Positions 3,059 to 45,867 of a stretch of 64,000 bases of DNA are shown here, one piece after another. The position numbers and the translations under genes are program-made. The notes beneath the pieces were generated by a model. That model was not told the origin of the DNA. It searched no databases and worked only from the letters and a program-made list of their open reading frames with translations. The stretch's first letter is position 1. Every line of letters starts with the position of its first letter. This stretch comes from an uncultured Erythrobacter sp. (GTDB lineage: Bacteria; Pseudomonadota; Alphaproteobacteria; Sphingomonadales; Sphingomonadaceae). The DNA lies in NCBI GenBank assembly GCA_947488755.1, contig CANLAD010000001.1:1869501-1933500 (forward strand), in the 5' to 3' direction.

Positions 3059-3110
3059 AATCTCGGTCCCCGAACAGGCGGCCAACGCCTCGGATCGAAG
3101 CGTTGTTCCT

Positions 3111-3320
3111 GCCCCCTCTGTCGGGTGACCTGAGAGCTTAGCCGAGAGCGCATCGCGCGCCCGGCCTTCCCCTTCGGTGGCGACCGCTGCTTTCGCACTG
3201 GCCGCGCTTTCCAGAGTGCCCATCGTCCGCGGTCCGTTTGCCTGAGAGTTTCCGGGGCGGTTGCTCCTTCGGCGCCGAGGCACGAACCCTTGCCGGGACC
3301 GCACTCCGCCTCTCCCGCGA
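3111..3320 (-). promoter_or_regulatory. Tandem glycine riboswitch
   Basis: On the minus strand, between promoter and gcvT, two glycine-aptamer-like units follow each other. The first has GCGGGAGAGGC, GCCGAAGGAGCAA and AACTCTCAGGCA. The second has CACCGAAGGGGAA, GCTCTCAGGTCACC and GACAGAGGGGG. These are the conserved signature strings of glycine aptamers, in the right order and twice. Glycine riboswitches normally switch gcv operons on when glycine is high. A hairpin with a GCGA tetraloop (3327-3344) lies immediately 5' of the first aptamer. Confidence 0.93.
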
Positions 3321-3363
3321 AAGACGTCCGGAATCGCTTCCGGAGTGGCCTAGCTCGTGTTGC

Positions 3364-41422: not shown

Positions 41423-41854
41423 ATGGCCGATACCGCACAAATCTCCCTGCGATCCAAACGGCGCCAGCCCTTGCGGGTATTGGTGGTCGAGGACGATGCA
41501 GTGCTGGGCATGTCCATCGAACAGGAACTGACCGAAGACGATTTTGCGAATGTAACGATCTGTTCGACCGCCGAATGCTCGATTGGCAAGCTCAAGTCGG
41601 AAAAGTTCGACGCGGTGGTGCTCGATGTCCATCTCGCCGACATGAGCGACGGCTGGGAAATCGCCGAACTGGTCGATGCACTCGGCAGCGAGGATACCCA
41701 GATCGTGTTCCAAACCGGCGCGCCGGACGAGATACCGGATCGAATTAAGCAATTGGGCGAGGTGCTGTCAAAACCATACGCCCCGGAAGACTTGCGCAAT
41801 GTGCTGCGTCAAAAGCCGCGCGCGAGCCTGCTTTCACGGCTGCGACCGCGCTGA
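41423..41854 (+). CDS. Single-domain response regulator
   Basis: 143 residues, one receiver domain and no output. Acidic pocket VVEDD, phospho-acceptor Asp in DAVVLDVHLADMSDG, Thr in IVFQTGAP and Lys in VLSKPYAPEDL. The IVFQTG-A segment resembles the FATGY variant of single-domain regulators such as SdrG, which act in the sphingomonad general stress phosphorelay. Its position beside the candidate sRNA and phyR supports the same pathway; this is inference. Confidence 0.88.
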   Translation: MADTAQISLRSKRRQPLRVLVVEDDAVLGMSIEQELTEDDFANVTICSTAECSIGKLKSEKFDAVVLDVHLADMSDGWEIAELVDALGSEDTQIVFQTGAPDEIPDRIKQLGEVLSKPYAPEDLRNVLRQKPRASLLSRLRPR

Positions 41855-41950: not shown

Positions 41951-41985
41951 AAAAAAGGCCTCCACTTCATGGAAGTGGAGGCCTT
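41951..41985 (-). terminator. Intrinsic terminator on the minus strand
   Basis: AAGGCCTCCACTTC (41955-41968) and GAAGTGGAGGCCTT (41972-41985) form a perfect 14-bp stem with a 3-nt loop. Read on the minus strand it is followed by TTTTTTCTTG, a textbook terminator. No protein gene on that strand ends here; it terminates the candidate sRNA. Confidence 0.92.
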
Positions 41986-42040
41986 CGGGATCGTATCACC
42001 AGCCGCTTGGACGGGAGGGGGGTCTCGGCGGTGACAAGGC
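41951..42040 (-). ncRNA. Candidate GsrN-like stress sRNA
   Basis: A ~90-nt RNA is predicted on the minus strand, from just after an EcfG-like promoter to the terminator. Its 5' half folds as TCACC-GCC ... GGC-T-GGTGA with an exposed loop that contains ACCCCCCTCCCGTCC. Its 3' half is the 14-bp terminator stem. A stress-sigma promoter, a C-rich 5' loop, a terminator hairpin and a location next to phyR/ecfG are the features described for Caulobacter GsrN. No coding frame of interest is present. Expression and target binding are untested. Confidence 0.72.
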
Positions 42041-42043
42041 TAT

Positions 42044-42068
42044 AATGCGCGGCCGAAAAGGCGGTTCC
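42044..42068 (-). promoter_or_regulatory. EcfG-like promoter of the candidate sRNA
   Basis: GGAAC (42068-42064), 16-bp spacer, CATT (42047-42044) on the minus strand. The EcfG consensus is GGAAC-N16/17-CGTT; only one base of the -10 differs. The expected start (~42038) fits the 5' hairpin of the RNA. Confidence 0.65.
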
Positions 42069-42146: not shown

Positions 42147-42196
42147 CGCAGCGCAAGGGTTGCGCTGCGCGGGAACACGCGCGATGGGCTTTGGTT
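42147..42196 (+). promoter_or_regulatory. EcfG-like promoter of phyR with adjacent hairpin
   Basis: GGAAC (42172-42176), 16 bp, GGTT (42193-42196) reads towards phyR, whose ATG is ~97 bp downstream. A perfect 10-bp stem (CGCAGCGCAA at 42147-42156 with TTGCGCTGCG at 42160-42169) abuts the -35 box; its role is unknown. Autocontrol of phyR by EcfG is common in sphingomonads. The remaining sequence between the response regulator and phyR shows no gene. Confidence 0.75.
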
Positions 42197-42292: not shown

Positions 42293-43087
42293 ATGTCACT
42301 AGGTCAGCAGGTCGCCGCAAATCTCCCGTTCTTGCGGCGCTATGCGCGCGCGCTTTCAGGATCGCAGGCAACCGGCGATGCTTTCGTGCGGGCAACACTC
42401 GAAGCGGCACTGGCGGATGAAGAGCTCAAGCAATCGCTCGAAGGCGGACGTATCCCGCTTTACCGCGCATTCAACAAGGTGTGGTCGAGCGCCTATCTTG
42501 AGATCGAGAACTCTTCAGAAAGCGCCGGCGAGCACGAGGCGGGCGTGCAGGATCGTCTGGGCGCGATTACGCCGATGAACCGACAGGCGCTGTTGTTGAC
42601 GACGCTGGAGGATTTTTCACCGGCACAGGCTGGCCAGATCATGAACCTCGAAGCCTCACAGGTCGAAGCGCTCGTTGCCGAAGCGGTCGAGGAGATCGAT
42701 AAAGAACAGTCAACCTCTGTCCTCATCATCGAGGATGAGCCGCTTATTTCGATGCAGCTTGAAGACCTCGTCACCTCGATCGGCCACGAAATTTGCGGGA
42801 CCGCAGCAACCCGTACGCAGGCGCAGGAAGTGGTTGCGGAGAAAAAGCCCGGCCTTGTCCTCGCCGACATTCAGCTCGCGGATGGGTCGTCGGGTCTCGA
42901 TGCGGTGGATGACATTCTCGCAATCGACAGCGTGCCGGTGATCTTTATCACCGCCTATCCCGAACGCCTGCTGACCGGCGACCGACCCGAGCCGACCTAT
43001 CTGGTCACCAAGCCATTTCAGGAACAGACTGTCCGCGCAGCAATCAGCCAGGCGCTGTTCTTCGGATCAAGCCGCCCGCTGGACTGA
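42293..43087 (+). CDS. phyR: General stress response anti-anti-sigma regulator PhyR
   Basis: 264 residues: an N-terminal EcfG-like sigma mimic (LPFLRRYARALSGSQATGDAFVRATLEAAL, then RQALLLTTLEDFSPAQAGQIMNLEASQVEALVAEA) and a C-terminal receiver (SVLIIEDEPLISMQLEDLV, acceptor Asp in LVLADIQLADGSSGLDAV, FITAYPERLLTG, TKPFQE). When phosphorylated it sequesters NepR and frees EcfG. ATG at 42293 with GGGAG upstream. It is convergent with the histidine kinase gene 20 bp downstream. Confidence 0.97.
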   Translation: MSLGQQVAANLPFLRRYARALSGSQATGDAFVRATLEAALADEELKQSLEGGRIPLYRAFNKVWSSAYLEIENSSESAGEHEAGVQDRLGAITPMNRQALLLTTLEDFSPAQAGQIMNLEASQVEALVAEAVEEIDKEQSTSVLIIEDEPLISMQLEDLVTSIGHEICGTAATRTQAQEVVAEKKPGLVLADIQLADGSSGLDAVDDILAIDSVPVIFITAYPERLLTGDRPEPTYLVTKPFQEQTVRAAISQALFFGSSRPLD

Positions 43088-43107: not shown

Positions 43108-44904
43108 TCACGCGATGAGGGGTAGTTCGGCCCGTGCGCGGATTTCGAATTCGCTACGCTGACGGACCGGCACCCCGATCACGCAACGCACACCTTCCGG
43201 CCGAAAATCCAATTCCACCCGGTGGCGCAATTCGTGCGCGACGATCTTCTCGATCAATTCGGTGCCAAAGCCGCGCGCGCGCATTTCGGCCACGGTCGGC
43301 CCGCCGCTCTCGACCCATTCGACCTTGGCTAGGCTGTCGCCCACCAGTGTCCAGGTGACCGATACCGCGCCCTCCGCAACGCTCAGCGCGCCGTATTTTG
43401 CCGCGTTCGTCGCCAGCTCGTGGATGGCGAGCCCGAATGACAGCGCATCGTTGGGCGCGAGTTCGACCTCTGGCCCGTCGATCGTAATGGTCTGATCGCT
43501 GGAGGCATCGACGTGCTGAAGCTCCGCCTCGATCACCGCGCGGATCGGCGTGGTTCCCCAGTCCGTACCTGTCAGCAGATCATGCGTTGCCGAAAGCGCT
43601 CTGATGCGCCCTTCAAGGCTCGACGCGAAATCATCCAGACTGCTCGATCGGCGGCGGGTCAGCGCAAGGATCGACAGGACGTTGGCGAGCGTGTTCTTCA
43701 CCCGGTGGTTGAGTTCGCGCGTAAGCTTGTCGCGGATGGATTGCTGCTCCTCCAGAAAGGTCAGTCGGGATTGGTCCTCCCTCGCCTGGCGGGTCAATAA
43801 CCGTGCGACAAGCATCAGCAGGCACGCAATCGCGAGGCCAAAGATAAGCGAGACCATCGAGATGGTCGCGAGCGTCTGGTTTTTGCGGGACTCAACGACC
43901 AGCCGCAAATCGCGATTTGCGATCGAAAGTGGCAGGGTGATACGCTCACCTCCCTCTTCGCCGTATCCGGTCGCCACCAGCAGGCCGGTTTCATCCTCTG
44001 GCGAAGCGCCATCGTACAAGCGCACGGCAAACGGTCGGGAAGCGTCCTGTTCTACCGCGGTTGCAAGAAACTTCTCGGCATCGAAAGCGCTGAACAGATA
44101 GCCCGCGATCCGCCGCTCTCGCGTCGGAGAAGCGGGGTCGGTGCGGTAAACCGGCATGAAGATGGCGAAACCGGGCGTCGACGCATCCTCTTTTGGCGAC
44201 AGGTCGATGCGCCCAGAGGCCGTCGGCCGCACGGCCCGCCGAGACTTCTCCATCGCCGTCGCCATGTCTTCGTCGGAATACATATCGAAGCCGAGCATCC
44301 GCCGATTTAGCGTGCTGTCAGGCGCAAAATAGGTAACCACAGCCGCTCGGTTACGCGGTGTAGAGACAGCCGGGTAAAGACTCGGGAAGTCTGGCCGCCT
44401 GGCACGCATTCGTTCCAGATAACGCGCGGTGTTGCCTGCTTCGATCACTTCGACCCAGCCGATCCCGTCTGCGCCGCGACGATCATCGCCAAGCTGCAAT
44501 TCGTCGACAAATCGGCGGAAGGTCAGCGGGCTGACATCGCGCGGACCGGCAAACAGCACGGCCCCCGCCCGCAGATATGATGAGAATGTGTTTGCGCGGC
44601 GATCCAGCGATGAGGCGATTGACTGCGCATATTGTTCGGCTTCGGCTCGTTCGCGCTCGCGGTCGTTGCTTTCGATAGCGAAGACACTGAGAGCAGTGAC
44701 CGCTGCGATGGCGAGGAAAATCGCTGCGGGGACCGCGCGCGGAAAGCGGACAAGCCATGTGCGCGCGCGGCCGTCCCGAACGGGGGCGTGATGAACCGCT
44801 TCCTCTTTCGAGGATGGCTTTGTCCGCGCGCTGATTGCTTGCCCTCCTTTATCGACCCAATGGTCATTTGCAAATATGTGCACGGAACCAAAGACTGCCG
44901 CCAT
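43108..44904 (-). CDS. CHASE-domain HWE histidine kinase of the stress locus
   Basis: About 600 residues. A membrane segment (AVPAAIFLAIAAVTALSVFAI), a periplasmic CHASE sensor (~100-330: GIGWVEVIEAGNTARYLERM, FPSLYPAVSTPRNRAAVVTYF, PGFAIFMPVYR), a second membrane segment (TISMVSLIFGLAIACLLMLVARLL), then an HWE kinase: ELNHRVKNTLANVLSILALT (phospho-His), LAIHELATNAAKYGALS, VEWVESGGP and GFGTELIEKIV. Candidate for the kinase that feeds PhyR. The start is uncertain: ATG 44904 is used, but the EcfG-like promoter overlaps it. Translation from a later codon is possible (an ATC at 44835 lies behind a strong AGGAGG). Confidence 0.9.
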   Translation of the reverse strand: MAAVFGSVHIFANDHWVDKGGQAISARTKPSSKEEAVHHAPVRDGRARTWLVRFPRAVPAAIFLAIAAVTALSVFAIESNDRERERAEAEQYAQSIASSLDRRANTFSSYLRAGAVLFAGPRDVSPLTFRRFVDELQLGDDRRGADGIGWVEVIEAGNTARYLERMRARRPDFPSLYPAVSTPRNRAAVVTYFAPDSTLNRRMLGFDMYSDEDMATAMEKSRRAVRPTASGRIDLSPKEDASTPGFAIFMPVYRTDPASPTRERRIAGYLFSAFDAEKFLATAVEQDASRPFAVRLYDGASPEDETGLLVATGYGEEGGERITLPLSIANRDLRLVVESRKNQTLATISMVSLIFGLAIACLLMLVARLLTRQAREDQSRLTFLEEQQSIRDKLTRELNHRVKNTLANVLSILALTRRRSSSLDDFASSLEGRIRALSATHDLLTGTDWGTTPIRAVIEAELQHVDASSDQTITIDGPEVELAPNDALSFGLAIHELATNAAKYGALSVAEGAVSVTWTLVGDSLAKVEWVESGGPTVAEMRARGFGTELIEKIVAHELRHRVELDFRPEGVRCVIGVPVRQRSEFEIRARAELPLIA

Positions 44905-44910
44905 CGTTCC
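44884..44910. promoter_or_regulatory. Divergent overlapping EcfG-like promoters (nepR-ecfG and histidine kinase)
   Basis: On the plus strand GGAAC (44884-44888), 16 bp, CGTT (44905-44908) points to nepR-ecfG. On the minus strand the same 27 bp reads GGAAC (44910-44906), 16 bp, GGTT (44889-44886) towards the kinase. Both match the EcfG consensus GGAAC-N16/17-CGTT fully or with one mismatch. Confidence 0.8.
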
Positions 44911-45007
44911 CGTAAAGACCCGATGAAACCGACCGGTGTTTGACTTTCCGCTCGGAACCCGTTTCGTCCGGATACGCATAATGAAAAGCGAACCGAGCAA
45001 GCCCATA

Positions 45008-45244
45008 ATGTCCAGTGATCAAAATAAAGAAAACGCCCATAAAACCGGGCGGCGAGCCGGTGACGGCGACGCGCCCGAATGGGCGAACGGTTTGCGACAG
45101 CTGTATGATTCAGTAGTCGATGAGCCGCTGCCAGATACATTCAAAGACCTGCTCGAACAGTTCGACGACTCCGACGAGACGGCTAACCACAAGTCCGACA
45201 GGAAGCAGGCGAACCCATCCTCCCACGGGGGGACAAATTCGTAA
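45008..45244 (+). CDS. nepR: Anti-sigma factor NepR
   Basis: 78 residues from ATG 45008. The NepR core is PEWANGLRQLYDSVVDEPLPDTFKDLLEQFD (two helices that clamp EcfG). The N- and C-terminal tails are polar and disordered-looking. An upstream in-frame ATG at 44981 would add 9 residues; neither start has a clear ribosome-binding site. The stop overlaps the ecfG ATG by one base (TAATG), the usual nepR-ecfG arrangement. It holds EcfG inactive until phospho-PhyR binds it. Confidence 0.93.
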   Translation: MSSDQNKENAHKTGRRAGDGDAPEWANGLRQLYDSVVDEPLPDTFKDLLEQFDDSDETANHKSDRKQANPSSHGGTNS

Positions 45245-45867
45245 TGGCCGATCAGAAACCCAAACCCGAGCGTACGGCGAAGGAAAAGGCCGAGTTCAAG
45301 CGCGAACTTACCGAGGTCGTGCCGCATCTGCGCGCATTCGCACGTGGCCTGTGCGGCCGCCCGGACATGGCGGACGATCTGGTGCAGGAGACCCTTCTGA
45401 AAGCGTGGGCTGCGCAGGCAAGGTTCGAACCAGGCACTTCGATGCGGGCATGGACCTTCGTCATCCTGCGCAACGCGTATCTTACCGACATGCGTCGCAA
45501 CCGGTTTCGCGGCGAATATGATGAGAACGTCGCCGAACGAATCCTCACCGCTCCAGCGGGACAGGAGGAGCCGATCCATCTGTCCGACATGCATCGCGCG
45601 CTCCTGACCCTTCCCCCCGAACGGCGCGAAGCGTTGCTGCTGGTCGGAGCGGGCGGCTTTTCCTACGAGGAAGCGGCGAACATCTGCGGCTGCGCGGTTG
45701 GCACGATCAAAAGCCGTGTCGGACGTGCGCGCGCGGCGCTGAACTCCATGCTGGCCGATGGCGACATCCCCCAACGCGATATCGAAGATGCAGGCGCGCA
45801 CCGCGCAATCCTCGAAGAACTGGACGAAGTCGCGGCCGGCAACGGCATCGCTGCCGCCAAGAATTGA
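45244..45867 (+). CDS. ecfG: Extracytoplasmic-function sigma factor EcfG
   Basis: 207-residue sigma factor of the ECF15 group. Region 2 is RAFARGLCGRPDMADDLVQETLLKAWAAQARFEPGTSMRAWTFVILRNAYLTDMRRNRF. Region 4 is LLTLPPERREALLLVGAGGFSYEEAANICGCAVGTIKSRVGRARAAL. It directs RNA polymerase to GGAAC-N16/17-CGTT promoters, of which four candidates lie in this locus, including one for its own operon (autoregulation). Confidence 0.97.
   Translation: MADQKPKPERTAKEKAEFKRELTEVVPHLRAFARGLCGRPDMADDLVQETLLKAWAAQARFEPGTSMRAWTFVILRNAYLTDMRRNRFRGEYDENVAERILTAPAGQEEPIHLSDMHRALLTLPPERREALLLVGAGGFSYEEAANICGCAVGTIKSRVGRARAALNSMLADGDIPQRDIEDAGAHRAILEELDEVAAGNGIAAAKN

Follow-up and report, generated by a model that had tools for sequence, protein, structure and literature searches.

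Background

Does the region divergently upstream of phyR in the general-stress locus of an Erythrobacter species hold a gene for a small RNA (sRNA) transcribed by the sigma factor EcfG, and how does such an RNA relate to GsrN, the general-stress sRNA of Caulobacter? The question is raised by a stretch of 64,000 nucleotides from an uncultured Erythrobacter sp. (GenBank assembly GCA_947488755.1, contig CANLAD010000001.1), the whole of which is called the window here and to which all positions given without a locus label refer. In Tien et al. 2018 (PMC5869019), Erythrobacter litoralis serves as an outgroup said to have 'no apparent gsrN-like gene'. The stress locus of Erythrobacter species and of their relatives contains a non-coding RNA gene of very high conservation. 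No report of this sRNA was found in open-licence PubMed Central papers, and the accessible main text of two studies of EcfG regulons, those of S. melonis and S. granuli (PMC6599016, PMC7083833), contains neither 'sRNA' nor 'small RNA'. Should the dependence on EcfG hold true, the alphaproteobacterial stress response would have a post-transcriptional arm beyond Caulobacter and Rhizobiaceae. For comparison, the group has E. litoralis as a genetic model and genome G030 as a natural case of sRNA loss, and the question can be put to the test with the covariance model, the defined loop and the sister designs.

A predicted RNA gene beside phyR

An earlier note on this DNA had described, on the minus strand, a promoter, a 5' hairpin with a C-rich loop and a terminator with a T6 tract, all of which are present. 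The features of the RNA gene and of its surroundings are as follows:

42064..42068, minus strand: -35 element GGAAC of the EcfG type, in the context GGGAACC
42044..42047, minus strand: -10 element CATT, with a spacer of 16 nt
42036..41951, minus strand: sRNA of about 86 nt, predicted to start 7 nt past the -10 box
41994..42036, minus strand: 5' hairpin with a stem of 7 + 4 bp, a one-nt bulge and a loop of about 20 nt
42009..42023, minus strand: C-rich loop ACCCCCCTCCCGTCC, the proposed target-pairing site
41951..41986, minus strand: intrinsic terminator and T6 tract
41423..41854, plus strand: receiver-domain protein (Pfam), convergent 3' neighbour of the sRNA
42172..42196, plus strand: EcfG-like promoter match GGAAC-N16-GGTT upstream of phyR (motif scan)
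42293..43087, plus strand: phyR, divergent from the sRNA (Pfam PhyR_sigma2, PhyR_sigma-like, Response_reg)
43108..45006, minus strand: HWE histidine kinase with a CHASE domain (Pfam)
44936..45244, plus strand: nepR, anti-sigma factor (Pfam NepR), with an EcfG-like promoter match at 44884-44908
45244..45867, plus strand: ecfG-type sigma factor (Pfam Sigma70_r2, Sigma70_r4_2)

The Pfam assignments of PhyR, the HWE/CHASE kinase, NepR, the EcfG-type sigma factor and the receiver-domain protein bear out the general-stress locus that had been proposed. In the sRNA, the terminator stem (41986..41954, minus strand) comprises 15 bp around a loop of 3 nt, the first three T of the T6 tract sitting inside the stem, and is joined to the 5' hairpin by the linker ACGATCCCGAA. 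The fold energy has a z of -7.85, equalled by 0 of 200 shuffles, and the terminator supplies much of it.

PhyR was found in 155 of 168 distinct orthologous loci, the other 13 stretches ending within 1.2 kb on the phyR side, and in 155 of these 155 the sRNA lies upstream of phyR and divergent from it. The distance between the two ranges from 132 to 1513 nt, being below 400 nt in 102 loci, between 400 and 1200 nt in 44 and greater in 9. In four loci where this distance is long, from two Qipengyuania and two Novosphingobium (L097, L116, L091, L152), a regulator-like gene, presumably of the Crp/Fnr type, is inserted between the sRNA and phyR. The convergent 3' neighbour is not constant, a relative of the receiver-domain protein being present within 1.5 kb in 102 of the 168 loci.

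A palindromic hairpin lying 3' of a converging gene could in principle be a bidirectional terminator or the 3' end of the convergent neighbour, or the element could be a gene leader, so that no separate gene would exist. This is extremely improbable, since the T-run follows the hairpin on the minus strand only, the 3' neighbour differs between loci while the RNA stays, and the 5' hairpin and the promoter, both needless for a terminator, are conserved. We regard it as nearly certain that the window element is an RNA gene, and the proposed stand-alone sRNA gene with an EcfG-type promoter, a C-loop and its own terminator is supported by conservation, covariation, promoters, locus and co-occurrence with PhyR.

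Conservation and covariation

Over 600 random pairs from 97 distinct orthologous loci, nucleotides 1-53 of the sRNA are 94% identical, as against 74% for the terminator, 65% for the promoter stretch and 57% and 58% for the flanks, which are no more alike than unrelated 60-mers (59%). These loci were fetched by blastn or by the covariance model, and similarity fetching favours alike sequences; the contrast between nucleotides 1-53 and the flanks is independent of this manner of fetching. Adding loci fetched by an exact pattern within the RNA gives 96% for nucleotides 1-53, a value inflated by that choice. The C-run of the loop is 6 nt long in 58 of the 97 loci, 7 in 34, and 5 and 8 once each (3 unparsed), and as its length thus varies from 5 to 8, no reading frame is kept through it.

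In an alignment of 64 sRNA copies, which was fitted to the structure of the model and is hence biased towards that structure, 98.3% of the pair cells are standard and 14 of 23 pairs show changes on both sides; the first MAFFT alignment yielded the same 5' stem unprompted. None of five measures was equalled by 500 shuffles or by six slid registers. The covariation lies mostly in the terminator, where 12 of the 12 modelled pairs change on both sides in orthologues. In the 5' stem, 2 of 11 pairs have changed on both sides and 5 on one side only, because the stem hardly varies. One of the two both-sided changes rests on row L204, which is visibly misaligned, and the other is sound (G-C to A-U in L212 and L242, and C-G in one copy). 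The 5' hairpin and the terminator of the sRNA covary.

Distribution and co-occurrence with PhyR

The window RNA belongs to a genuine and highly conserved sRNA family, which Erythrobacteraceae and Novosphingobium carry in their general-stress locus. By blastn, the 141-bp stretch was detected in 33 of 61 genomes, all of them Erythrobacter (with Porphyrobacter), namely the window's own genome and 32 of the 36 sampled congeners. The RNA alone matches in 64 of 149 genomes of the family and in 40 of 96 genera, and a pattern scan of named genomes fetched at least 118 stretches. The carriers among the matches listed (80 titles, E. litoralis not among them, some being metagenome bins with no name below family, order or class level) belong to Erythrobacteraceae genera and to Novosphingobium. 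Across 246 genomes of the order, 68 copies score at least 64 bits with the covariance model, the next score being 34.5, and 88 genomes match at E<=0.1, the 68 strong ones included. PhyR is present in 149 of the 246 genomes and in 68 of the 68 strong sRNA carriers, a co-occurrence that counts less as independent evidence because of physical linkage and shared ancestry.

Three of the four congeners negative by blastn (G007, G014 and G033) also lack PhyR. Genome G030, an Erythrobacter assembly of 7 contigs with a completeness of 100, has kept phyR (L223:1327-1500), and no sRNA copy adjoins it or was found elsewhere in that genome by the covariance model. The sRNA is therefore not indispensable, and G030 represents a natural loss.

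When the model included the diverged copies described below, nothing strong was found outside Sphingomonadaceae among 385 genomes of the class searched with stricter filters, of which 4 are known carriers and 65 have PhyR. Five weak matches in other orders (26-31 bits) have no PhyR, NepR or EcfG within 1.5 kb. In another alphaproteobacterium (G599), locus L252 holds a hairpin loop CCCCCCCTCCC and a terminator, scoring 30.7 bits with model R2, and no PhyR lies within 1.5 kb. Further weak hits (L203, L205-L211, L213-L222 and L230-L234) were set aside, the stretches examined containing no PhyR, NepR or EcfG. One stretch in the PhyR-less congener G007 (L215:620-687, minus strand; 21.7 bits) resembles the linker and terminator of the sRNA 3' half, has no C-loop of any kind and adjoins the acetyltransferase gene that flanks the sRNA in other loci; it is perhaps a decayed remnant of the sRNA. 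Viral contigs yielded no relative of PhyR.

Promoter and the sigma factor behind it

Within the window alone, GGAAC-N15-18-SRTT matches 8 times with 7.35 matches expected, which is not above chance, and because the motif is unremarkable at this level, relatives were compared. If the motif is counted as kept wherever GGAAC is followed by a -10 box whose end lies 5-9 nt ahead of the RNA, it is at the right place in 161 of 165 distinct orthologous promoters, as compared with 37 of 10,050 placements chosen at random within these loci; it is likewise present in 95 of the 97 loci of the conservation set. The spacer measures 16 nt in 154 of the 165 promoters, and the -10 boxes read CATT in 145, CGTT in 10, TATT in 4 and AATT in 2, the remaining four reading CGTA. 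Upstream of phyR, an EcfG-like motif occurs within 350 nt in 127 of 155 regions, with the -10 boxes CGTT (107), GGTT (9), GATT (9), CATT (1) and TATT (1). The predominance of CATT before the sRNA and of CGTT before phyR is a kept difference, which suggests a tuned, weaker activation of the sRNA.

As most orthologues carry CATT rather than CGTT (145 of 161 sRNA promoters, as opposed to CGTT in 107 of 127 phyR upstream regions), one or more other ECF sigma factors stay a rival to EcfG, the sRNA then being merely housed in the stress locus. We consider such control improbable, given that some orthologues have CGTT exactly where others have CATT, that the PhyR-less congeners tested have no strong match to the sRNA model, and that EcfG uses CATT in vitro according to the accessible part of a study in Sphingopyxis (PMC7083833). 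The same source gives the EcfG regulon as many as 14 distinct -10 boxes, with CATT among the most frequent after CGTT, and reports that changing CGTT to CATT lowers and changing CATT to CGTT raises transcription by EcfG in vitro. That EcfG drives the sRNA is very likely, and CATT may be retained on purpose as a sub-maximal EcfG promoter.

Elsewhere in the window, tandem glycine riboswitch aptamers were recognised at 3114-3327 on the minus strand (57.6 and 41.5 bits), close to which lies a GGAAC-N17-CGTT match (3109..3084) that may be due to chance.

Relation to GsrN and other known RNAs

The earlier note had called the RNA GsrN-like, which stands as a description of design (an EcfG site, the phyR locus and a predicted exposed 5' C-loop) and does not stand as a statement of homology, as RF01529 gives no match. 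Tien et al. 2018 named the GsrN-like RNAs of Rhizobiaceae by their proximity to the stress locus, an EcfG site and a C-rich 5' loop. By comparison, the window sRNA has a near-consensus EcfG site upstream, is close to phyR and ecfG, and has a 5' C-loop whose exposure follows from prediction and covariation only; several of the Rhizobiaceae RNAs have transcript data cited for them in that paper, whereas the window sRNA is a comparative prediction.

The sRNA is absent from Rfam 15, none of whose families scores above its threshold on it, and the suggested search with a GsrN model (RF01529, identified with GsrN as explained below) returned no match at the gathering score or at E<=10. The highest-scoring Rfam match below threshold, which spans the full model, is CC1840 (RF01521; 26.4 bits, E 0.074, gathering score 50), for which a search of whole genomes, with 150 of 2783 candidates scored, gave nothing at E<=1 in the window's genome; judging from coordinates in PMC5869019, CC1840 and GsrN are probably two distinct RNAs of Caulobacter. 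The alphaproteobacterial sRNA ar14 (RF02344) is not among the E<=10 matches of the window RNA, and on the type II copy L262 it scores 18.2 bits against 58.8.

RF01529, termed 'CC3552', was found just 3' of phyR in two loci of another family of the class that had been fetched because of PhyR (L360:3255-3361, minus strand; L361:4925-5027, plus strand). Both copies have EcfG-type promoters, one being GGAAC-N16-CGTT and that in L361 being readable as GGAAC-N16-CATT. RF01529 is very probably gsrN under an older name, because its model length of 106 nt is that of GsrN (deletion 59-106) and because 11 of the 12 letters of the target site UCAAGUCGGGGC, printed by Tien et al. (PMC5869019), complement its consensus CCCCGACUUGA.

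The window sRNA and GsrN (ccna_R0081 of Caulobacter) are alike in their EcfG/SigT-type promoter, a length of around 100 nt, an exposed 5' C-run and an own terminator, and GsrN, if it is RF01529, also adjoins phyR in the two loci found. GsrN is, however, 106 nt long with a multibranched loop and is situated 3' of phyR on the same strand, whereas the window RNA has 86 nt and a single 5' hairpin and lies divergently upstream; the loops read CCCCCCUCCCGUCC in the window sRNA and GCCCCCCCGACUUGAG in GsrN. In Caulobacter, cleavage of GsrN leaves a stable 5' fragment of 51-54 nt (PMC5869019), to which the 53 frozen nucleotides of the window sRNA are an attractive parallel and no more.

The shared promoter type, C-rich 5' loop, terminator and stress locus, the CATT reading of the RF01529 promoter in L361 and the equal length of the frozen stretch and the stable GsrN isoform would all suit a true, highly diverged GsrN orthologue inherited with the stress locus from an alphaproteobacterial ancestor. 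Such descent is rather unlikely when the other observations are considered: RF01529 is missing from the E<=10 lists of the window RNA and of the type II copy L262 as well as from the E<=1 list of the type III RNA in L258 (see below), its copies in L360 and L361 follow the 3' end of phyR in the same orientation and are not divergently upstream, and its multibranched loop differs from the one hairpin of the window RNA. With no match to RF01529 and nothing strong outside the family among the 385 genomes of the class, the likeness is therefore one of design, and homology to GsrN is not demonstrable.

Diverged copies and a further C-loop RNA in stress loci

Diverged copies of the sRNA, scoring 32-33 bits, occur in genomes G295 and G326 (L204, L212), where they adjoin phyR upstream of an ecfG paralogue. 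Their loops hold ACC(A/T)CCCCCCGCA, and their second hairpin has no T-run right behind it. The promoter of both copies is GGAAC-N16-CGTT, which ties the sRNA family to the canonical EcfG promoter.

A different RNA, here termed type III, was recognised in three PhyR-bearing genomes, G150, G215 and G334, all without the window's RNA (L257:9516, plus strand; L258:4603, minus strand; L260:4582, minus strand). In these loci it lies about 2 kb from phyR, divergent from it, behind a promoter of the form GGAAC-N-GTT. Its 5' hairpin loop bears a run of seven C (GCCCCCCCGC), its second hairpin is also C-rich, and there is no clear T-run. Type III and the window sRNA are thus alike in promoter, C-loop and divergence from phyR and unlike in sequence. 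By blastn, 48 of the 246 order genomes have type III; each of the 48 also has PhyR, and the window's RNA is missing from them all. Six of these genomes match more weakly (G103, G255, G328, G344, G355 and G356), and in them type III and the PhyR hit are on separate contigs. No Rfam family exceeds its threshold over type III (L258), the only match at E<=1 being Scr3202, with 30.9 of 52 bits.

Of the 149 PhyR-bearing genomes, 118 have one of three RNA types, none having both of the common ones, and 31 have none of the three; in one of these 31 (G061), a promoter scan of the phyR locus gave no candidate. A census of C-loop hairpins in 40 phyR loci, a chosen subset of the PhyR places in other orders, found them at 3 of 155 promoter-like sites, one of the three being RF01529; in the controls, 7 of 1600 positions taken at random and none of 36 sites with the reversed motif had such a hairpin. 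The census missed the RF01529 copy in L361; the scan is therefore insensitive, and nothing is drawn from it.

It is possible, and offered here as a tentative reading, that at least three alphaproteobacterial lineages (those of the window sRNA family, of type III in other Sphingomonadaceae, and of GsrN) each gained an EcfG-driven RNA with a 5' C-loop independently, or rebuilt it until no likeness could be recognised, most Sphingomonadaceae stress loci keeping one kind. The C-loop RNA would then be a convergently maintained standard part of the PhyR-EcfG system, with the frozen 53 nt as the working part.

Proposed mechanism and candidate targets

In the proposed mechanism, stress would lead to phosphorylation of PhyR and to release of EcfG from NepR, and the freed EcfG would transcribe the sRNA from GGAAC-N16-CATT. 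The resulting 86-nt RNA, ended by its Rho-independent terminator, would keep the C-rich stretch CCCCCCUCCCGUCC open in the loop of the 5' hairpin, and this loop would pair with G-rich stretches of mRNA, most likely at or near Shine-Dalgarno sequences. Pairing would add a post-transcriptional layer to the stress response, the sign of regulation being a matter of inference. We hold with good confidence that the sRNA is a stand-alone, trans-acting general-stress RNA that is transcribed by EcfG and pairs through its C-loop, and pairing of the loop is likely to be how it acts.

Instead of pairing with mRNA, the sRNA might serve as a sponge that binds an RNA-binding protein. Loop and linker alike hardly vary, beyond what a simple seed needs, and no target was found, which speaks for a sponge; drift of the C-run between 5 and 8 nt, however, fits pairing more easily than it fits a protein site, and the C-rich loop of GsrN acts by pairing with mRNA, katG included, in Caulobacter, according to the accessible part of PMC5869019. 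We therefore judge a sponge to be quite improbable.

Perfect 9-nt complements of part of the loop (CGGGAGGGG sites) are scarcer in the window's genome than those of a reversed control, of which there are 59; the 24 true ones include the sRNA gene itself. A start codon stands at Shine-Dalgarno distance in two places, L280 and a repeat (L283/L284) that precedes an 84-aa frame. The site in L280 is antisense to a reading frame that we take to be TolQ-like, and none of the 24 perfect complements is a convincing target. The phyR leader was also rejected: across 147 leaders, the median duplex energy is -17.5 kcal/mol with a median z of -0.60, only slightly better than shuffled leaders. Leaders of neighbouring genes have a positive median z (2 to 24 leaders each).

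For katG, 18 leaders of PF00141 genes from the window's genome and its relatives, both congeners and non-congeners, were read by eye, some of the starts being merely those of the longest reading frame. These leaders share no long G-tract and have no EcfG motif within 300 nt upstream; they bear ordinary Shine-Dalgarno sequences and lend no support to the suggestion of katG as a target. In the window's own genome, the Shine-Dalgarno region of the katG leader contains GGGAG, complementary to the loop over 5 bp.
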